Shown here: piece after piece, positions 44,590 through 51,168 of the stretch
How positions within the stretch are numbered: position 1 is the stretch's first letter
Layout: each line of letters begins with the position of its first letter
DNA from: Pedobacter aquae
GTDB taxonomy: Bacteria; Bacteroidota; Bacteroidia; Sphingobacteriales; Sphingobacteriaceae
DNA: 64,000 bases
NCBI RefSeq assembly: GCF_008195825.1
Contig: NZ_CP043329.1
Location: forward strand, 3,782,001 to 3,846,000
Direction of reading: 5' to 3'
Program-made: the position numbers and the translations under genes
Notes under the pieces: generated by a model
Databases searched by the model: none
Told to the model about the DNA's origin: nothing
The model's input: the letters and a program-made list of their open reading frames with translations, nothing else

Positions 44590-47082
44590 ATGACTCCCAA
44601 TAACCCATTTCAAATCTCAGGTTTAAGTACAGAAGAAGTACTGCAATCAAGATTGAGCCATGGTGATAATAAGGTCGTTTATAAAAAGCAAAATAGTTTT
44701 GTAACCTCTTTAGTCGGCTTGGTAAAAGAACCTATGGTGATTTTACTTTTTGCGGCTTCTTTCATATACCTCATCAGTGGCGAGCCTGAGGACGCCCTAT
44801 TTCTTGCCGTAGCTATTGTGCTTGTTGCTACCATTTCTATTTATCAAGATTATAGAAGTAAAACAGCTTTAGAAAAGCTCAAAGAGTTTACACAGCCGGT
44901 TTGCAAGGTTGTCAGAGATGGTGAAATTATCGCTATAAAAACCGAAGATTTGGTTATTGGAGATTTTTTAATTGCCGAGGAAGGCACTACCATTACCGCA
45001 GATGGTATGATGGTGAAAGGGAATGATTTTTCTGTGAATGAAGCGGTACTTACCGGAGAGTCTTTTGCCGTTTTTAAAAATCATAAAGACAATAGGGAGC
45101 TTTATCAGGGCTCCCAGGTGGCAAGTGGTATGGCTTTAATACAAGTTACGGCTATTGGGAAAGCTACTAAATTGGGTAAAATAGGGAAAAGCCTTGGCGA
45201 TATCGAAGAAGAAAAAACACCTCTAGAAATACAGATTGGCTATTTTGTTAAGAGGATGGTGATTATTGGCGCCCTTGTATTTGCGATTGTTTGGGCTTTA
45301 AATTATCTAAAATCTTACAACCTGCCAGATAGCTTATTGAAAGCTTTAACCCTAGCTATGAGTATTTTGCCAGAAGAAATACCGGTAGCATTTGTGACTT
45401 TTATGGCCTTAGGTGCTTGGCGATTGATGAAAATGGGTGTTGTGGTAAAGCAAATGAAAACCGTAGAAACTTTGGGTAGCGCAACAGTGATTTGTACAGA
45501 TAAAACAGGTACACTTACAGAAAATAAAATGGCTTTAGCCCGATTATTTTTATTGAGCGCTAATCAGGTAAGTACTTTTCAAGAAGATGTTAAGCCAGAG
45601 GAAAAAAATCTGATAGAAGTAGCTATGTGGGCTAGTGAGCCTAATCCCTTCGACCCGATGGAAATTGCCCTTCATCAAGCCTATAAAAAAGCTACGGATA
45701 GCGATAAAAGACCCGATTTTCAGATGTATCATGAGTATCCGCTAGGAGGTAAGCCACCTATGATGACACATGTTTTTGAAAATCAACAAAAAGAAAGAAT
45801 AATTGCTGCAAAAGGTGCACCGGAAGCTATTATAGCCGTTTGTCAGCTTACCGAGGATGAAAAGAATAGCATCCAAAAAGCAATAGCAGAAATGGCTTTT
45901 GAAGGTTTTAGGGTATTAGGTGTAGCAAAGTCTGATTTTAGGGGCGATGATTTTCCTCAACAACAGCAAGATTTTGATTTTCAGTTTGTAGGGTTGGTTG
46001 CCTTTTATGACCCACCAAAAAATAATATCTCTGAAGTGCTTCATGGTTTCTATCAAGCGGGTATAAAAGTGAAAATTGTAACGGGCGATAATGCTTTAAC
46101 AACTAAAGCTATAGCTAAAGAAATTGATTTTAAAGGTTACGATAAAGGTATAAGTGGCGATGAATTGATGCAGTTAAATGATGAAGAGCTTGTAAAAGCT
46201 GTACAAGAAAATGCAGTTTTCACCAGGATGTTTCCAGAGGCTAAACTCAAAATCATTAATGCCTTAAAAAGTAATCAGGAAATTGTAGCCATGACAGGCG
46301 ATGGCGTTAACGATGGTCCGGCTTTAAAAGCATCTCATATCGGTATCGCTATGGGTAAAAAAGGAACTGAAATTGCGAAACAGGCAGCTTCTTTAATTTT
46401 AGTTGAAGATGATTTATCTAAGATGTTAGATGCCATAGCCATGGGTAGAAGAATTTATACCAATTTAAAAAAGGCTATTCAGTATATCATTTCGATACAT
46501 ATTCCTATTATTTTAACGGTTTTTATTCCTCTAGCTTTAGGATGGTTGTATCCAAATATATTTTCCCCTATTCATGTGATTTTTCTTGAGCTGATTATGG
46601 GGCCAACTTGCTCTATCATATATGAGAATGAACCTATAGAGCAAAACAGCATGTTGCAAGCGCCAAGACCATTTACAGTAAGTTTCTTTAATGGTAAAGA
46701 GTTATTTACGAGTGTGATACAAGGTTTAGCCATTACAGCCGGAACTTTGTTTGTTTATCAATACGCTATTCATCAGCAGCTATCAGAAGAGCTTTGTAGG
46801 ACGATGGTTTTTACAACCCTTATTTTCGCTAATATCTTCTTAACCTTAGCTAATCGCTCTTTTTATTATAGCATTTTTACCACGCTATTTTATAAAAATT
46901 CATTAGTCTCTGTTATAATTGCAATCACACTAGTTATTTTATTTGCCTTACTTTATATCCCTGCTTTTACAAATTTCTTCGAGTTTGAAAGCTTAGGTGT
47001 AACTCAATTATTGCTTGCTTTTGTTGTAGGTTTTATAAGTGTTATTTGGTTTGAGGTAGTGAAATGGTGGAAGAGGTCTTGA
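44590..47082 (+). CDS. P-type cation-transporting ATPase (P2-like)
   Basis: 830 residues. N-terminal cation-ATPase domain, then M1-M2 (ILLFAASFIYLISGE...ALFLAVAIVLVATISIYQDY), actuator with VLTGES, M3-M4 with ILPEEIPVAFV (the PEEIP of Ca2+-type ATPases), phospho-acceptor Asp in ICTDKTGTLTENKM, nucleotide domain with KGAPEA, TGDNALTTKAIA, hinge MTGDGVNDGPALKASHIGIAMG, and a C-terminal cation domain of four helices. It is closest in style to Ca2+ or Mn2+/Na+ P2-type pumps; the ion is not clear. It is monocistronic. Confidence 0.9.
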   Translation: MTPNNPFQISGLSTEEVLQSRLSHGDNKVVYKKQNSFVTSLVGLVKEPMVILLFAASFIYLISGEPEDALFLAVAIVLVATISIYQDYRSKTALEKLKEFTQPVCKVVRDGEIIAIKTEDLVIGDFLIAEEGTTITADGMMVKGNDFSVNEAVLTGESFAVFKNHKDNRELYQGSQVASGMALIQVTAIGKATKLGKIGKSLGDIEEEKTPLEIQIGYFVKRMVIIGALVFAIVWALNYLKSYNLPDSLLKALTLAMSILPEEIPVAFVTFMALGAWRLMKMGVVVKQMKTVETLGSATVICTDKTGTLTENKMALARLFLLSANQVSTFQEDVKPEEKNLIEVAMWASEPNPFDPMEIALHQAYKKATDSDKRPDFQMYHEYPLGGKPPMMTHVFENQQKERIIAAKGAPEAIIAVCQLTEDEKNSIQKAIAEMAFEGFRVLGVAKSDFRGDDFPQQQQDFDFQFVGLVAFYDPPKNNISEVLHGFYQAGIKVKIVTGDNALTTKAIAKEIDFKGYDKGISGDELMQLNDEELVKAVQENAVFTRMFPEAKLKIINALKSNQEIVAMTGDGVNDGPALKASHIGIAMGKKGTEIAKQAASLILVEDDLSKMLDAIAMGRRIYTNLKKAIQYIISIHIPIILTVFIPLALGWLYPNIFSPIHVIFLELIMGPTCSIIYENEPIEQNSMLQAPRPFTVSFFNGKELFTSVIQGLAITAGTLFVYQYAIHQQLSEELCRTMVFTTLIFANIFLTLANRSFYYSIFTTLFYKNSLVSVIIAITLVILFALLYIPAFTNFFEFESLGVTQLLLAFVVGFISVIWFEVVKWWKRS

Positions 47083-47093
47083 TATTTTAAAAT

Positions 47094-47930
47094 TAGCTAT
47101 TACGCAGAAGGCTTTCCAACCCTAGCCGGGTAGTGGCTTCTTTCTTCTTGTAATAGCTTTTTCGCACAAGGCTTTCCGGCCTCATAGGCGGCCAACCCTA
47201 TTTACTTTTTTCTTGATAAAAAAGTGCCCAAAAAACGAGGAACGAGTTCATGAATACCTAAGAAAGCCATAACCAAAAAATGAATAAATCCTGCCTACCG
47301 GCAGGCAGGCAAGGCTATTGAATATTTGTCGTTCCGTCTAAATAAATCTTCATTCACAATCCTGAGTGGTGTGAATGTTTTTGCTTGATGAAAGTATCTA
47401 CAACACCCGTCGGATTGTTTTCCGCTAGTTCTCTATGAAAGTTTTTGCAAAAGATTTATTTGCCTTCACTTCCAAATCTTCATAGGCCGTCCTCGTTCTT
47501 CGGAAAGGCATATTTAATTTTCAAAGGAGCTTCCTAAATATCCACATTTCAGGTTCTTTATACTTTTGCCGTCTTGAAAGAAACAACCATTCATAAATAA
47601 CAGTCTAAACCGAAGCGCATGGGCAACAATTAGTTATTCGTTACTAGTTGATTAGGTTGTTAGGCCGAAATATCTAATATTTAGGCATCTTTTTACTTTA
47701 TACTTTTGACTTTTTACTTAAATAAAGCCTATAGCGAATGTGGTTTTGCGTTCGAGTTTACACTAACGTACAAAAACTATAACCTAGCAAAAATAAGCGC
47801 TCCTTGTTTTTGAGTGTGGGAGAGTCTTGTGCGGCAAAGGCTCCAGTGGGATTGTTCAGGACTTTTGGTTCCTTTTGGTCCCGCAAAAGGAACGAGCCCC
47901 GCCGGCGATAGAGGCGGGTAATTATTATCA
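47094..47930. repeat. Non-coding structured repeat, copy A (diverged)
   Basis: The left module GCTATTACGC...GTAATAGC (47095-47157), then GGCCTCATAGGCGGCC and the hairpin ACTTTTTT-CTTGAT-AAAAAAGT (47204-47225). The middle shares TGAATATTTGTCGTTCCGTC and CAATCCTGAGTGGTGTGAAT with the other copies but has its own inserts, one holding the palindrome CCTGCCTACCGGCAGGCAGG (47290-47309). The right hairpin is GTTCCTTTTG-GTCCCG-CAAAAGGAAC (47868-47893), followed by GAGCCCCGCCGGC. No reading frame is preserved across copies. Confidence 0.75.
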
Positions 47931-47966
47931 TTAAAAATTACTGAGCTAAGTGAAGCGTTTGGAAAT

Positions 47967-48632
47967 GGCAATTTCGCACAAGGCTTTCCGGCCTCATAGG
48001 CGGCCAACCCTATTTACTTTTTTCTTGATAAAAAAGTAAACAAAAAATCAAGGCTATTGAATATTTGTCGTTCCGTCTAAATAAATCTTCATCCACAATC
48101 CTGAGTGGTGTGAATGTTTTTGCTTAATGAAAGTATTTACAACACCCGTCGGATTGTTTTCCGCTAGTTCTCTATGAAAGTTTTTGCAAAAGATTTATTT
48201 GACTCCATGTCCAAATCTTCATAGGCCGTCCTTCGTTCTTCGGAAAGATAAGTTTTATGTTCAAAGGCAGTTCCTAAAAATCTCAATTTTAGGTTCTTTA
48301 TACTTTCTACACCCAGACAGGAACAACCATTCATAAAAAACAGGCTATCCCGAAGCGCATGAGCAATCCCCCAGAGCCGGAAAGGACGAAAAAACAGCAG
48401 CAGAAATTAAAAAATCTTGCACTTCCAAGCCTATAGCGAATGCGGTTTTGCGTTCGAGTTTGTAAAAACCTTCCTAAATCACTTGCTAGCAAAAATAAGC
48501 GCTCACTGTTTTTGAGTGTGGGTGAGTTTTGTGCGGCAAAGGCTCCAGCGGGATTGCTCAAGGGTTTTGATTACTTTTTTCCTCTAAAAAGTAATGGGCC
48601 CCGCCGGCTCTTGAGGCGGATAATTATTGTTT
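47967..48632. repeat. Non-coding structured repeat, copy B
   Basis: Begins at GGCAATTTCGCACAAGGC and lacks the GCTATTAC module. The left hairpin is TTTACTTTTTT-CTTGAT-AAAAAAGTAAA (48013-48040, an 11-bp perfect stem). The right hairpin is ATTACTTTTT-TCCTCT-AAAAAGTAAT (48570-48595), flanked by GGGCCCCGCCGGCTCTTGAGGCGG. The GC-rich flanks at the two ends are themselves imperfect inverted repeats of each other. The sequence from about 48142 onward is part of the perfect 746-bp tandem duplication. Confidence 0.8.
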
Positions 48633-48653
48633 TATGGAGATTGTGAACTAATG

Positions 48654-49378
48654 GGCTATTACGCCCAAGGCTTCCCAACCCTAGCCGGGTAGTGGCTTCT
48701 TTCTTCTTGTAATAGCTTTTTCGCTCAAGGCTTTCCGGCCTCATAGGCGGCCAGCCCTAGGCACTTTTTTCTTAAAAAAAAGTTCCCAAAAATTCAAGGC
48801 TGATGAATATTTGTCGTTTCGTCTAAATAAATCTTCATCCACAATCCTGAGTGGTGTGAATGTTTTTGCTTGATGAAAGTATCTAAAACACCCGTCGGAT
48901 TGTTTTCCGCTAGTTCTCTATGAAAGTTTTTGCAAAAGATTTATTTGACTCCATGTCCAAATCTTCATAGGCCGTCCTTCGTTCTTCGGAAAGATAAGTT
49001 TTATGTTCAAAGGCAGTTCCTAAAAATCTCAATTTTAGGTTCTTTATACTTTCTACACCCAGACAGGAACAACCATTCATAAAAAACAGGCTATCCCGAA
49101 GCGCATGAGCAATCCCCCAGAGCCGGAAAGGACGAAAAAACAGCAGCAGAAATTAAAAAATCTTGCACTTCCAAGCCTATAGCGAATGCGGTTTTGCGTT
49201 CGAGTTTGTAAAAACCTTCCTAAATCACTTGCTAGCAAAAATAAGCGCTCACTGTTTTTGAGTGTGGGTGAGTTTTGTGCGGCAAAGGCTCCAGCGGGAT
49301 TGCTCAAGGGTTTTGATTACTTTTTTCCTCTAAAAAGTAATGGGCCCCGCCGGCTCTTGAGGCGGATAATTATTGTTT
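48654..49378. repeat. Non-coding structured repeat, copy C
   Basis: Left module GCTATTACGCCCAAGG...GTAATAGC, left hairpin CACTTTTTTCTTAAAAAAAAGT, then the shared body and the same right hairpin as copy B. Bases 48142-48949 recur exactly at 48888-49695 (offset 746), so the right part of B and most of C form a recent, error-free tandem duplication with the following copy. Confidence 0.85.
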
Positions 49379-49399
49379 TATGGAGATTGTGAACTAATG

Positions 49400-49800
49400 G
49401 GCTATTACGCCCAAGGCTTCCCAACCCTAGCCGGGTAGTGGCTTCTTTCTTCTTGTAATAGCTTTTTCGCTCAAGGCTTTCCGGCCTCATAGGCGGCCAG
49501 CCCTAGGCACTTTTTTCTTAAAAAAAAGTTCCCAAAAATTCAAGGCTGATGAATATTTGTCGTTTCGTCTAAATAAATCTTCATCCACAATCCTGAGTGG
49601 TGTGAATGTTTTTGCTTGATGAAAGTATCTAAAACACCCGTCGGATTGTTTTCCGCTAGTTCTCTATGAAAGTTTTTGCAAAAGATTTATTTGACTTCGC
49701 TTCCAAATCTTCATAGGCCGTCCTTCGTTCTTCGGAAAGACATATTTAATTTTCAAAGGAACTTCCTAAAATATCTGCTCTTTAGGTTCTTTCTACTTTG
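49400..49800. repeat. Non-coding structured repeat, copy D (truncated right half)
   Basis: Starts with the same GCTATTAC module and left hairpin as copy C and is identical to C up to about 49695. It then drifts (TTTGACTTCGCTTCC against TTTGACTCCATGTCC in C) and ends in AT-rich sequence with repeated AGGTTCTTTCTACTTT-like stretches just before the Fe-S protein gene. The right hairpin is missing. Confidence 0.75.
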
Positions 49801-49878
49801 TACTCAATACTTTTTACTTAAAAGTCAGTCCCTAAATATTCGTTTTTTAGGCTCTTTCTACTTTCTACTCAGTACTAT

Positions 49879-51168
49879 TTACTTCTCGTCCCTCAAATTC
49901 TCTAAATTAAGAACACCTCTTGGGCAAACTGCCGAGCATACACCACAACCAACACAAGAAGCTCTGATGATATTTTCGCCTTTTTGTGCGTAAGCTCTTA
50001 CATCAATACCCATTTCACAATAGGTAGAGCAATTGCCGCAAGAAATGCACTGTCCGCCGTTGGTAGTTATCCTAAATTTAGATTTAAATCTTTGAAATAA
50101 ACCTAAAATAGCAGCCATTGGGCATCCAAACCTACACCAAACGCGATTTCCAAAAATGGGATAGAAGCCTGTACCAATAACTCCAGAGAAAATTGAGCCT
50201 ATAAAAAAGCCATACCATTGGGAAAAATTGCCAGACCATGTGCCTAGTAAGCCACCTTCCCAAGCAGAATTAAGCCATAACATGATGGTGGTGATGATGA
50301 TGAAAACTAAAACACCATGTACGGTATAGCGTTCTATTTTCCAAGCTTTTAAAGATTTATCAGAAAGTTGCCTGTAAGGGTCGCCCATAGTTTCTGCCAA
50401 ACCTCCGCAGCCACAAACCCAAGAGCAATACCACCTTTTACCATACTTGTAGGTAAGTAAAGGTGTGGCAATAAAAGTCATGATAGCTCCCCAAAAAATC
50501 ATGAAATAGCCCAAACCTCCAGAAGAAACTACGTAATTAATATCGTTTGGCCATAAATAGCCATATTTTAAAGGCCAGAAATAAGAGAAATAGAATTCAG
50601 GTTGATTAAACATCAGTAGCAATCCGGGTAAAACAAAGGCAAAACCCAACTGAAAAAACATCACCGAAAGGGTACGGATAATTTGATAGCGGTTATGTCT
50701 GTATTTTCCAATAAACCTAAATCCCATAACTAAAACCGCCAGCGTATATAAAGTTCCGTAAAGAAACCATTGGTCGGCAGCTTTATTTCTAAGCAGCCAG
50801 CTCAAAGGGTCACACATCCTGATTAAGCCTTCCAAATACTGCGGAAACCAATATAAAATGATGTAAAAACCAGTAAGAACTAGCCCTGTAAACCAAGCTA
50901 AGGCACCTCTGTTGGTCATCCCGTTTTTAAAGATGTTATTGTTTTTTATACCCGCTTCATGCTGAAAATATGGGTAGGCATAAACCAAAGTTCCGGCACT
51001 TATGAAACCTACAGATAGCCAAAAAAATAATACAGGTTGCGTAGCACCAGCACCAAAAGCAGCTATAATAGTAGCTAGTACGCCAAATGCCAAAAGAGCA
51101 ATGCCTGTTTTTTGAAGTTTATTAGCTCCCGAACCATCGGTTACAGCCAAGGAAATATCTTTACTCAT
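49879..51168 (-). CDS. NapH/NosR-like membrane 4Fe-4S ferredoxin protein
   Basis: 429 residues with about seven to eight hydrophobic helices and then a cytoplasmic C-terminus with two [4Fe-4S] motifs, CISCGNCSTYCEMGIDV and CVGCGVCSAVCPRGVL. A conserved WCSWVCGCGGLAET segment in the membrane part resembles NapH/NosR/CcoG-type electron-transfer proteins. It probably passes electrons across or into the membrane. Its gene starts 10 bp after the FAD oxidoreductase stop, so the two are likely partners (electron donor and membrane relay). Confidence 0.85.
   Translation of the reverse strand: MSKDISLAVTDGSGANKLQKTGIALLAFGVLATIIAAFGAGATQPVLFFWLSVGFISAGTLVYAYPYFQHEAGIKNNNIFKNGMTNRGALAWFTGLVLTGFYIILYWFPQYLEGLIRMCDPLSWLLRNKAADQWFLYGTLYTLAVLVMGFRFIGKYRHNRYQIIRTLSVMFFQLGFAFVLPGLLLMFNQPEFYFSYFWPLKYGYLWPNDINYVVSSGGLGYFMIFWGAIMTFIATPLLTYKYGKRWYCSWVCGCGGLAETMGDPYRQLSDKSLKAWKIERYTVHGVLVFIIITTIMLWLNSAWEGGLLGTWSGNFSQWYGFFIGSIFSGVIGTGFYPIFGNRVWCRFGCPMAAILGLFQRFKSKFRITTNGGQCISCGNCSTYCEMGIDVRAYAQKGENIIRASCVGCGVCSAVCPRGVLNLENLRDEK

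Follow-up and report, generated by a model that had tools for sequence, protein, structure and literature searches.

The gap between a cation P-type ATPase gene (44590-47082, plus strand) and a 4Fe-4S protein gene (49879-51168, minus strand) of Pedobacter aquae is occupied by an array of non-coding units, which on balance we regard as a local tandem stand of a non-coding, structure-defined interspersed repeat belonging to a non-autonomous and probably mobile family. All positions refer to the window, that is, the whole stretch of 64,000 nucleotides that was analysed. The array is repetitive and devoid of a reading frame, its pairing covaries among copies, it has relatives outside the phylum, and its copy number differs between sister genomes. 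We favour the mobile, non-autonomous reading because of the copy number, the inverted ends, the lack of genes and the spread beyond Bacteroidota, and the relatives in other bacterial groups suggest, at the level of sequence, that this structured and probably mobile element is old. The pairing between hairpin loop and downstream sequence, a rod of about 180 nt, the relatives outside Bacteroidota and the growth of the array by exchange between copies all go beyond the original prediction.

The array extends over 47.1-49.9 kb and comprises the four copies originally described, three of them full and one truncated, all on the plus strand: A (47158-47967), B (47968-48715, the reference copy), C (48716-49461) and D (49462-49819), the last of which stops past the rod and a terminator-like hairpin. 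From these approximate starts, the start-to-start spacings are 812, 747 and 746 bp, giving a unit of 746-812 bp. The left hairpin ACTTTTTT..AAAAAAGT is present in all four copies. The right hairpin is, as first described, GTTCCTTTTG/CAAAAGGAAC in copy A, while B and C both have ATTACTTTTT/AAAAAGTAAT. The GC-rich flanks, read earlier as imperfect inverted repeats of each other, were likewise recovered in copy B (GGCCTCATAGGCGGCC at 47990-48005 and CCGCCGGC..GAGGCGG at 48601-48619, plus strand), their inverted relation being judged by eye. The paired change between the right hairpin of A and that of B and C, taken earlier as a sign of a selected structure, stood in part: pairing is kept in copies outside the window, but within the window the change is one event and not two, because B and C are 97 % identical.

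Each unit opens with an X module of ~350 bp, reaching in many arrays from the left hairpin to a CCTAAA..TTTAGG hairpin (in unit coordinates of the fetched loci); in the reference copy this end is a CCTAAAA..TTTTAGG hairpin followed by TTCTTT (48273-48293, plus strand), terminator-like by eye. The second part of the unit is closed by the right hairpin in inverted orientation. X modules standing alone were found at two loci (L040 and L046), and a number of arrays, the window's included, finish in a truncated unit. No open reading frame (ORF) of at least 80 aa, the minimum length scanned, lies inside the array, which agrees with the predicted lack of a reading frame and, at this ORF length, counts against a decayed protein gene; a 105-aa ORF with a TTG start begins within copy D and exits antisense to the Fe-S gene.

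Additional repeats accompany the units. A distinct palindromic unit, GCTATTAC...GTAATAGC, which encloses a terminator-like hairpin (AGCCGGGTAGTGGCT + TCTTTCTTCT), is located at 47096-47157, 48655-48716 and 49401-49462, ahead of copies A, C and D and not of B. A tail repeat of ~56 bp (a CCTAAA..TTTAGG hairpin with TACTTT/TACTC runs) lies at 47664-47719, 49764-49819 and 49829-49884; it is doubled at the array end, where it adjoins the stop codon of the Fe-S gene, and short matches elsewhere hint at solitary, dispersed copies of a similar piece. At 47290-47313, copy A has in addition a GC-rich palindrome (CCTGCCTACCGGCAGGCAGG), and a similar insert was seen at two other loci (L004 and L008).

With regard to known families, Rfam 15 at gathering thresholds returned only tRNA elsewhere in the window, a scan of the array at weak E-values only SmY (E 2.2), and 12 related loci only a lysine riboswitch outside the element. 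A known Rfam RNA or rRNA identity is not supported at the gathering threshold for the array and these 12 loci, including the rRNA-adjacent fragment that had been named in advance as a case against the prediction. A phage origin was discarded, as the phage collection gave no match. Literature searches with topic terms and sequence strings, subscription papers being outside their scope, found no paper describing the element, which thus appears to be without a name in Rfam or the literature covered.

The end hairpin forms one half of a motif that also includes an A-rich linker and a complement of the hairpin loop. The loop, CTTGAx, is complementary to a near downstream xTCAAG, and the two can form an H-type pseudoknot. 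In the window, this left pseudoknot is intact in B (48013-48052, plus strand; stem 48013-48023/48030-48040, loop CTTGAT 48024-48029, A-rich linker, complement ATCAAG 48047-48052), as assigned from sequence and covariation tests, and carries one loop-pairing mismatch in C (48763-48798) and the same mismatch in D (49509-49544). In A, the hairpin lies at 47204-47225 and its loop complement is split by the palindromic insert, before AAGGC at 47311. The right ends mirror the left ones by eye, on the minus strand: in A (47859-47893), GGAC (47859-47862) can pair with the loop GTCC (47878-47881) enclosed by the stem GTTCCTTTTG/CAAAAGGAAC (47868-47877/47884-47893), whereas in B (48561-48595) AGGG (48561-48564) can pair with TCCT (48580-48583), with one G-T pair, next to a stem at 48570-48579/48586-48595, and C (49307-49341) is as B.

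That pairing is kept under sequence change, as the original prediction had it, was upheld by tests on other copies. Among 128 distinct instances, for which a CTTGAx loop with nTCAAG at most 30 nt downstream was required, the x pair is T-A in 76, C-G in 29, A-T in 20 and mismatched in 3; in 22 other hairpins with a CTTGAx loop, no TCAAG follows within 30 nt. A pattern with a fixed stem core and CAAGGC and a free loop yielded 34 matches in 8 of 149 genomes and none in the reversed-pattern control. By eye, 32 of these combine CTTGAT, CTTGAC or CTTGAA with ATCAAG, GTCAAG or TTCAAG, and the other two (loops CATGAC and ATTGAT) have one mismatch each. A looser, phylum-wide pattern matched in 14 of 296 genomes, with one match in the reversed control; since the patterns were strict, such rates understate prevalence. 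When instances were picked by stem and linker alone (83 distinct loop/downstream pairs from 121 instances, 50 of 171 A-rich hairpins having been excluded for want of a CAAAA linker), the mean helix was 4.59 versus 3.73 in permutations, whose maximum was 4.02 in 2000. Similarly, a scan of genome contigs with both pairing strands free returned at least 118 stretches, 80 of them with names, and all 118 entered the pairing test: the mean helix of the 85 distinct matches was 4.04 versus 2.94 permuted (maximum 3.28 in 5000), and 3.16 versus 2.58 (maximum 2.91 in 5000) for the 55 matches left after removal of CTTGA and CTTA loops. The helix is below 4 bp in 42 of the 85, including those of Xanthomonas, Lysobacter and Pseudomonas. 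Because related sequences are not independent, all these counts describe a pattern and not numbers of events. Furthermore, the length of the A-run in the linker tracks that in the stem (r 0.53; 0 of 5000 permutations), and of 318 records, in which overlapping loci are counted repeatedly, 93 have an inverted partner no more than 900 bp away. The pairing is under some constraint, which may act on RNA or on single-stranded DNA.

The search of other genomes that had been proposed brought up relatives. In the own genome, a single 3.85-Mb contig, one unit has 82 matches, which are spread over many sites and frequently follow one another, and 28 of 41 genomes searched, the own included, gave matches. 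A consistently placed ORF was found in none of the related loci viewed. The exact 29-nt window pattern had no match in the genome-contig collection. Loop pairing of at least 4 bp was present, among the named matches of the freer scan, in Bacteroidota (Parabacteroides, Flavobacterium, Sphingobacterium, Mucilaginibacter, Emticicia and others), in three Neomarinimicrobiota contigs of one metagenome-assembled genome (MAG), and in single MAG contigs labelled Peribacterales, Clostridia and proteobacterium, although MAG contigs can be mis-binned. A megaplasmid of Ilyobacter polytropus (Fusobacteriota) holds several copies with 6-bp loop pairing, one of which possesses both inverted ends with loop pairs that differ between them. 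In the matches from Xanthomonas, Lysobacter and Pseudomonas, hairpin and linker are accompanied by loop pairing of only 2-3 bp, and an AACTCGC...GCTCAnACA-like sequence was seen by eye downstream in Xanthomonas, Lysobacter, Phascolarctobacterium and one Bacillota MAG. At the sequence level, Bacteroidota, Fusobacteriota and Neomarinimicrobiota show a clear pseudoknot, whereas in Xanthomonadales and some Bacillota contigs only the hairpin, the linker and the AACTCGC...GCTCAnACA motif appear. An internal-loop motif lies ~62 nt downstream of 33 of 184 pseudoknots, many in Parabacteroides-like loci, and upstream of none, pseudoknots with less than 300 nt on the tested side having been skipped. As the sole query against 148 genomes it retrieved 7 loci in 5 genomes, six of which show, by eye, an intact hairpin and A-rich linker ~60-65 nt upstream; it is absent from most instances, and none was seen in the window's X module. 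Sequences of this kind are presumably widespread in bacterial genomes. It is conceivable, if rather improbable, that the elements represent a pan-bacterial, gene-free class of mobile structured RNA or single-strand DNA, with a fold kept across phyla and a conserved host activity as its mover; the short loop pairing of 2-3 bp in Xanthomonadales, Pseudomonas and some Bacillota matches makes this less probable.

Two observations at individual loci may be added here. Another tandem array of the own genome (144.9-147.2 kb; L039, 7415-9681), with spacings of 492-625 bp, matches the window unit at its right end only. At L121 and L131, the sequence just beyond the inverted ends is itself palindromic by eye (TTTATCTG...CAGATAAA is one instance). 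The element could thus have inserted into hairpin targets there, but such surroundings are absent at L109.

Inside the pseudoknots, each unit holds a rod of ~180 nt formed by nested long-range helices, on the plus strand at 47311-47492 in A and 48050-48231 in B, as assigned by alignment and covariation and in B also by fold score. In C (48796-48977) and D (49542-49723) it was placed by the 746-bp spacing, C being near-identical to B, and in D by comparison with a copy in the closest genome as well. After hits shorter than 150 nt, off-locus and near-duplicate ones were removed, 62 of 74 rods remained, and 33 of the 62 were chosen by hand for the covariation alignment to retain divergent copies. 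These 33 aligned X cores, from several members of the genus, fold into nested helices with a small covariation term (-1.02). Over 34 named pairs, 95.8 % of cells are paired, a fraction that is favoured since the structure was partly derived from the same alignment. The covariation score was 0.132 compared with 0.049 in shuffles (0 of 500) and 0.023-0.045 when the partner was slid. Changes on both sides affected 9 pairs versus 5.4 in shuffles (2 of 500 reaching 9) and 45 cells versus 11.8, and were found in arms up to ~190 nt apart, while further pair types did not exceed the shuffles (21 versus 18.6; 47 of 500). The shuffles ignore relatedness, and the two-sided changes constitute the stronger evidence.

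Could the element instead be a structured RNA that is useful to its host? In this case, the plus strand of the X module would be transcribed, fold into pseudoknot and rod and end at the terminator-like hairpin, acting as a regulatory RNA or an mRNA 3' end whose dosage is raised by tandem copies. Indeed, folding is more favourable for the plus than for the minus strand (z -4.35 versus -2.20), two rod pairs are nearly constitutive T-G on it (58 and 57 of 62 copies), and many arrays stop near the hairpin. The placement of arrays is also biased: in 42 of 52 clusters, the 3'-side gene points toward the array. Clusters were required to reach 100 bits in total and to be flanked by an ORF left and right; several are orthologous and hence not independent. 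Convergent pairs (21) and same-direction pairs opposed to the array (21) prevail over aligned (4) and divergent (6) ones, with 12 convergent, 6 opposed, 1 aligned and 2 divergent in the own genome alone; genes were called as simple ORFs of at least 90 aa, and the counts of pair types are raw. Opposed and aligned pairs would naturally be expected in equal numbers, so their ratio of 21 to 4 means that arrays are rarely in front of the 3'-side gene. However, the 5'-side gene shows no preference over the same 52 clusters (25 toward, 27 away), and apart from the two constitutive pairs, G-T and A-C cells are about equal (15 versus 18), a comparison uninformative for the choice of strand. Moreover, 2 promoter-like sites were counted versus 5.6 expected, and their consensus was of the sigma-70 and not the Bacteroidota type; the CCTAAAA..TTTTAGG hairpin was not among the terminator-scan results, and head-to-head double modules are unexpected for one RNA gene. 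We consider such a host function unlikely.

Comparison with sister genomes bears on how the array arose. The closest genome (G013), with ~95 % identical flanks, has a single X at this site versus four copies here. Of the four, only A has the head insertion of this X, and D has its tail, which fits the entry of extra units into a resident X by homologous exchange. At least three loci of the own genome (L043, L046 and L048) correspond by both flanks to loci of G013 or G009 that hold the element, and others, several in number, do so by one flank; as the sites of these three are occupied in sister species too, recent transposition is not supported. L052 was the one locus compared at single-base level; there was no clean empty site or target duplication there, and G013 and G011 hold truncated remnants. 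At L054, L064 and L068, the flanks of one own-genome locus lie on different G009 contigs, each beside an element copy, as expected of repeat-mediated rearrangement.

Copy numbers that vary between sister genomes, and copies that are truncated, interrupted or internally deleted, would also suit neutral debris in which template switching during replication corrects imperfect palindromes and thereby creates paired changes without selection. The end-hairpin stems are perfect over 8-12 bp, as this process would leave them, though the search demanded perfect stems. Yet the loop-downstream pairing co-varies without being nested in a hairpin, rod arms ~190 nt apart change on both sides, and a motif ~60 nt from the hairpin is common to several phyla. 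An origin as debris is accordingly quite improbable.

A mobilising gene was not found among the Y1 stretches and reverse transcriptases examined, and here the original prediction, which had suggested a linked transposase or reverse transcriptase, was not supported. A retroelement of the group II intron or retron type was rejected on its need for a reverse transcriptase: this gene is present in 7 of 18 genus genomes, and G009 combines 32 element matches with no match to PF00078, so the enzyme does not seem to be required, unless it was lost recently. It is very improbable that the element is REPIN-like and mobilised by a RAYT/Y1 enzyme, a REP-associated tyrosine transposase, for although inverted pairs of hairpin modules, intergenic position, many copies and Y1 genes in 18 of 18 genus genomes would fit, Y1 genes also occur in two genomes without an element match (G012 and G016), and none of 12 Y1-gene stretches (G000, G009 and G013) carries the element (best match ~24 bp, E 0.06) or shows the REPIN/RAYT arrangement of a RAYT gene flanked by the same palindrome.

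Returning to a non-autonomous and probably mobile family, we propose the following model. A module would consist of an outer pseudoknot followed by the long rod, and a full unit of two such ends facing inward. The folded single strand, DNA or RNA, may be recognised by cell machinery, and selection on this recognition would preserve the pairing while the family spread as a non-autonomous mobile element. The junctions further suggest that homologous exchange between repeats multiplies resident copies where they stand, and that internal deletions cause their decay, and copies might persist mainly where the 3'-side gene points at them.

Small non-coding repeats are usually regarded as confined to one lineage. 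A pseudoknot and rod recurring in Bacteroidota and beyond, in many natural variants, provide a defined fold to search for and a covariation data set to model, and pose a direct question: which protein or process recognises the fold? In addition, the element may explain intergenic breaks in some draft assemblies, as several matches are at contig ends.

Among published elements, the nearest are PIT/TMECO of E. coli by the design of the ends and MITEs and REPINs by layout, while for no kind were all the defining features tested found together. PIT/TMECO are enterobacterial elements with intrastrand triplexes (Holder et al. 2015, PMC4666352), which are intergenic and multi-copy, also occur in inverted pairs and have a reported link with local rearrangement. 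Intergenic location, high copy number and inverted pairs are shared with the present element, as is the order of pyrimidine arm, loop, purine arm, short spacer and second purine arm. This Y-loop-R-spacer-R order and the correlated A-runs would suit a class II intrastrand triplex and, equally, a pseudoknot with an A-rich loop. In contrast, TMECO is G/C-rich with a fixed consensus (CCCTCNCCC N3-6 GGGNGAGGG N3 GGGNGAGGG; PMC4666352), from which the A/T-rich unit ends in the window (ACTTTTTT..AAAAAAGT) depart. Four fetched E. coli TMECO hits, representing three distinct loci, have the same arm order and an inverted partner at two of the three, but by eye, unlike the present element, neither loop complement nor rod. 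As the same paper counts A/T-rich triplex motifs widely, naming Flexibacter litoralis as rich, the present ends may be among its data; its available main text lacks the words "Bacteroidetes", "Xanthomonas" and "pseudoknot" and describes neither rod nor loop pairing.

BrickBuilt MITEs of Porphyromonas gingivalis, from the same phylum, are similarly multi-copy, intergenic and non-coding, with inverted ends and stable positions, yet they are built round a 23-nt minisatellite with an end beginning CCGAAAGGTCTC, and "ACTTTT" and "pseudoknot" are absent from the available main text (PMC4596501). MITEs in general are short, non-coding, interspersed, intergenic and bounded by inverted ends; non-coding sequence with terminal inverted repeats was found in the window and in three relatives (L121, L131 and L142). 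The differences are that no target duplication was found at L052, that relatives exist in other phyla, and that folding rather than a fixed terminal sequence is common to the copies. REP, BIME and REPIN elements likewise are intergenic, with palindromic modules in inverted pairs and clusters, whereas the present element measures hundreds of bp, comprises pseudoknot and rod and is without RAYT linkage in the 12 stretches. Finally, the BOX-type repeats of pneumococci are modular, tandemly variable, structured and non-coding, and by this general description the present element resembles them.
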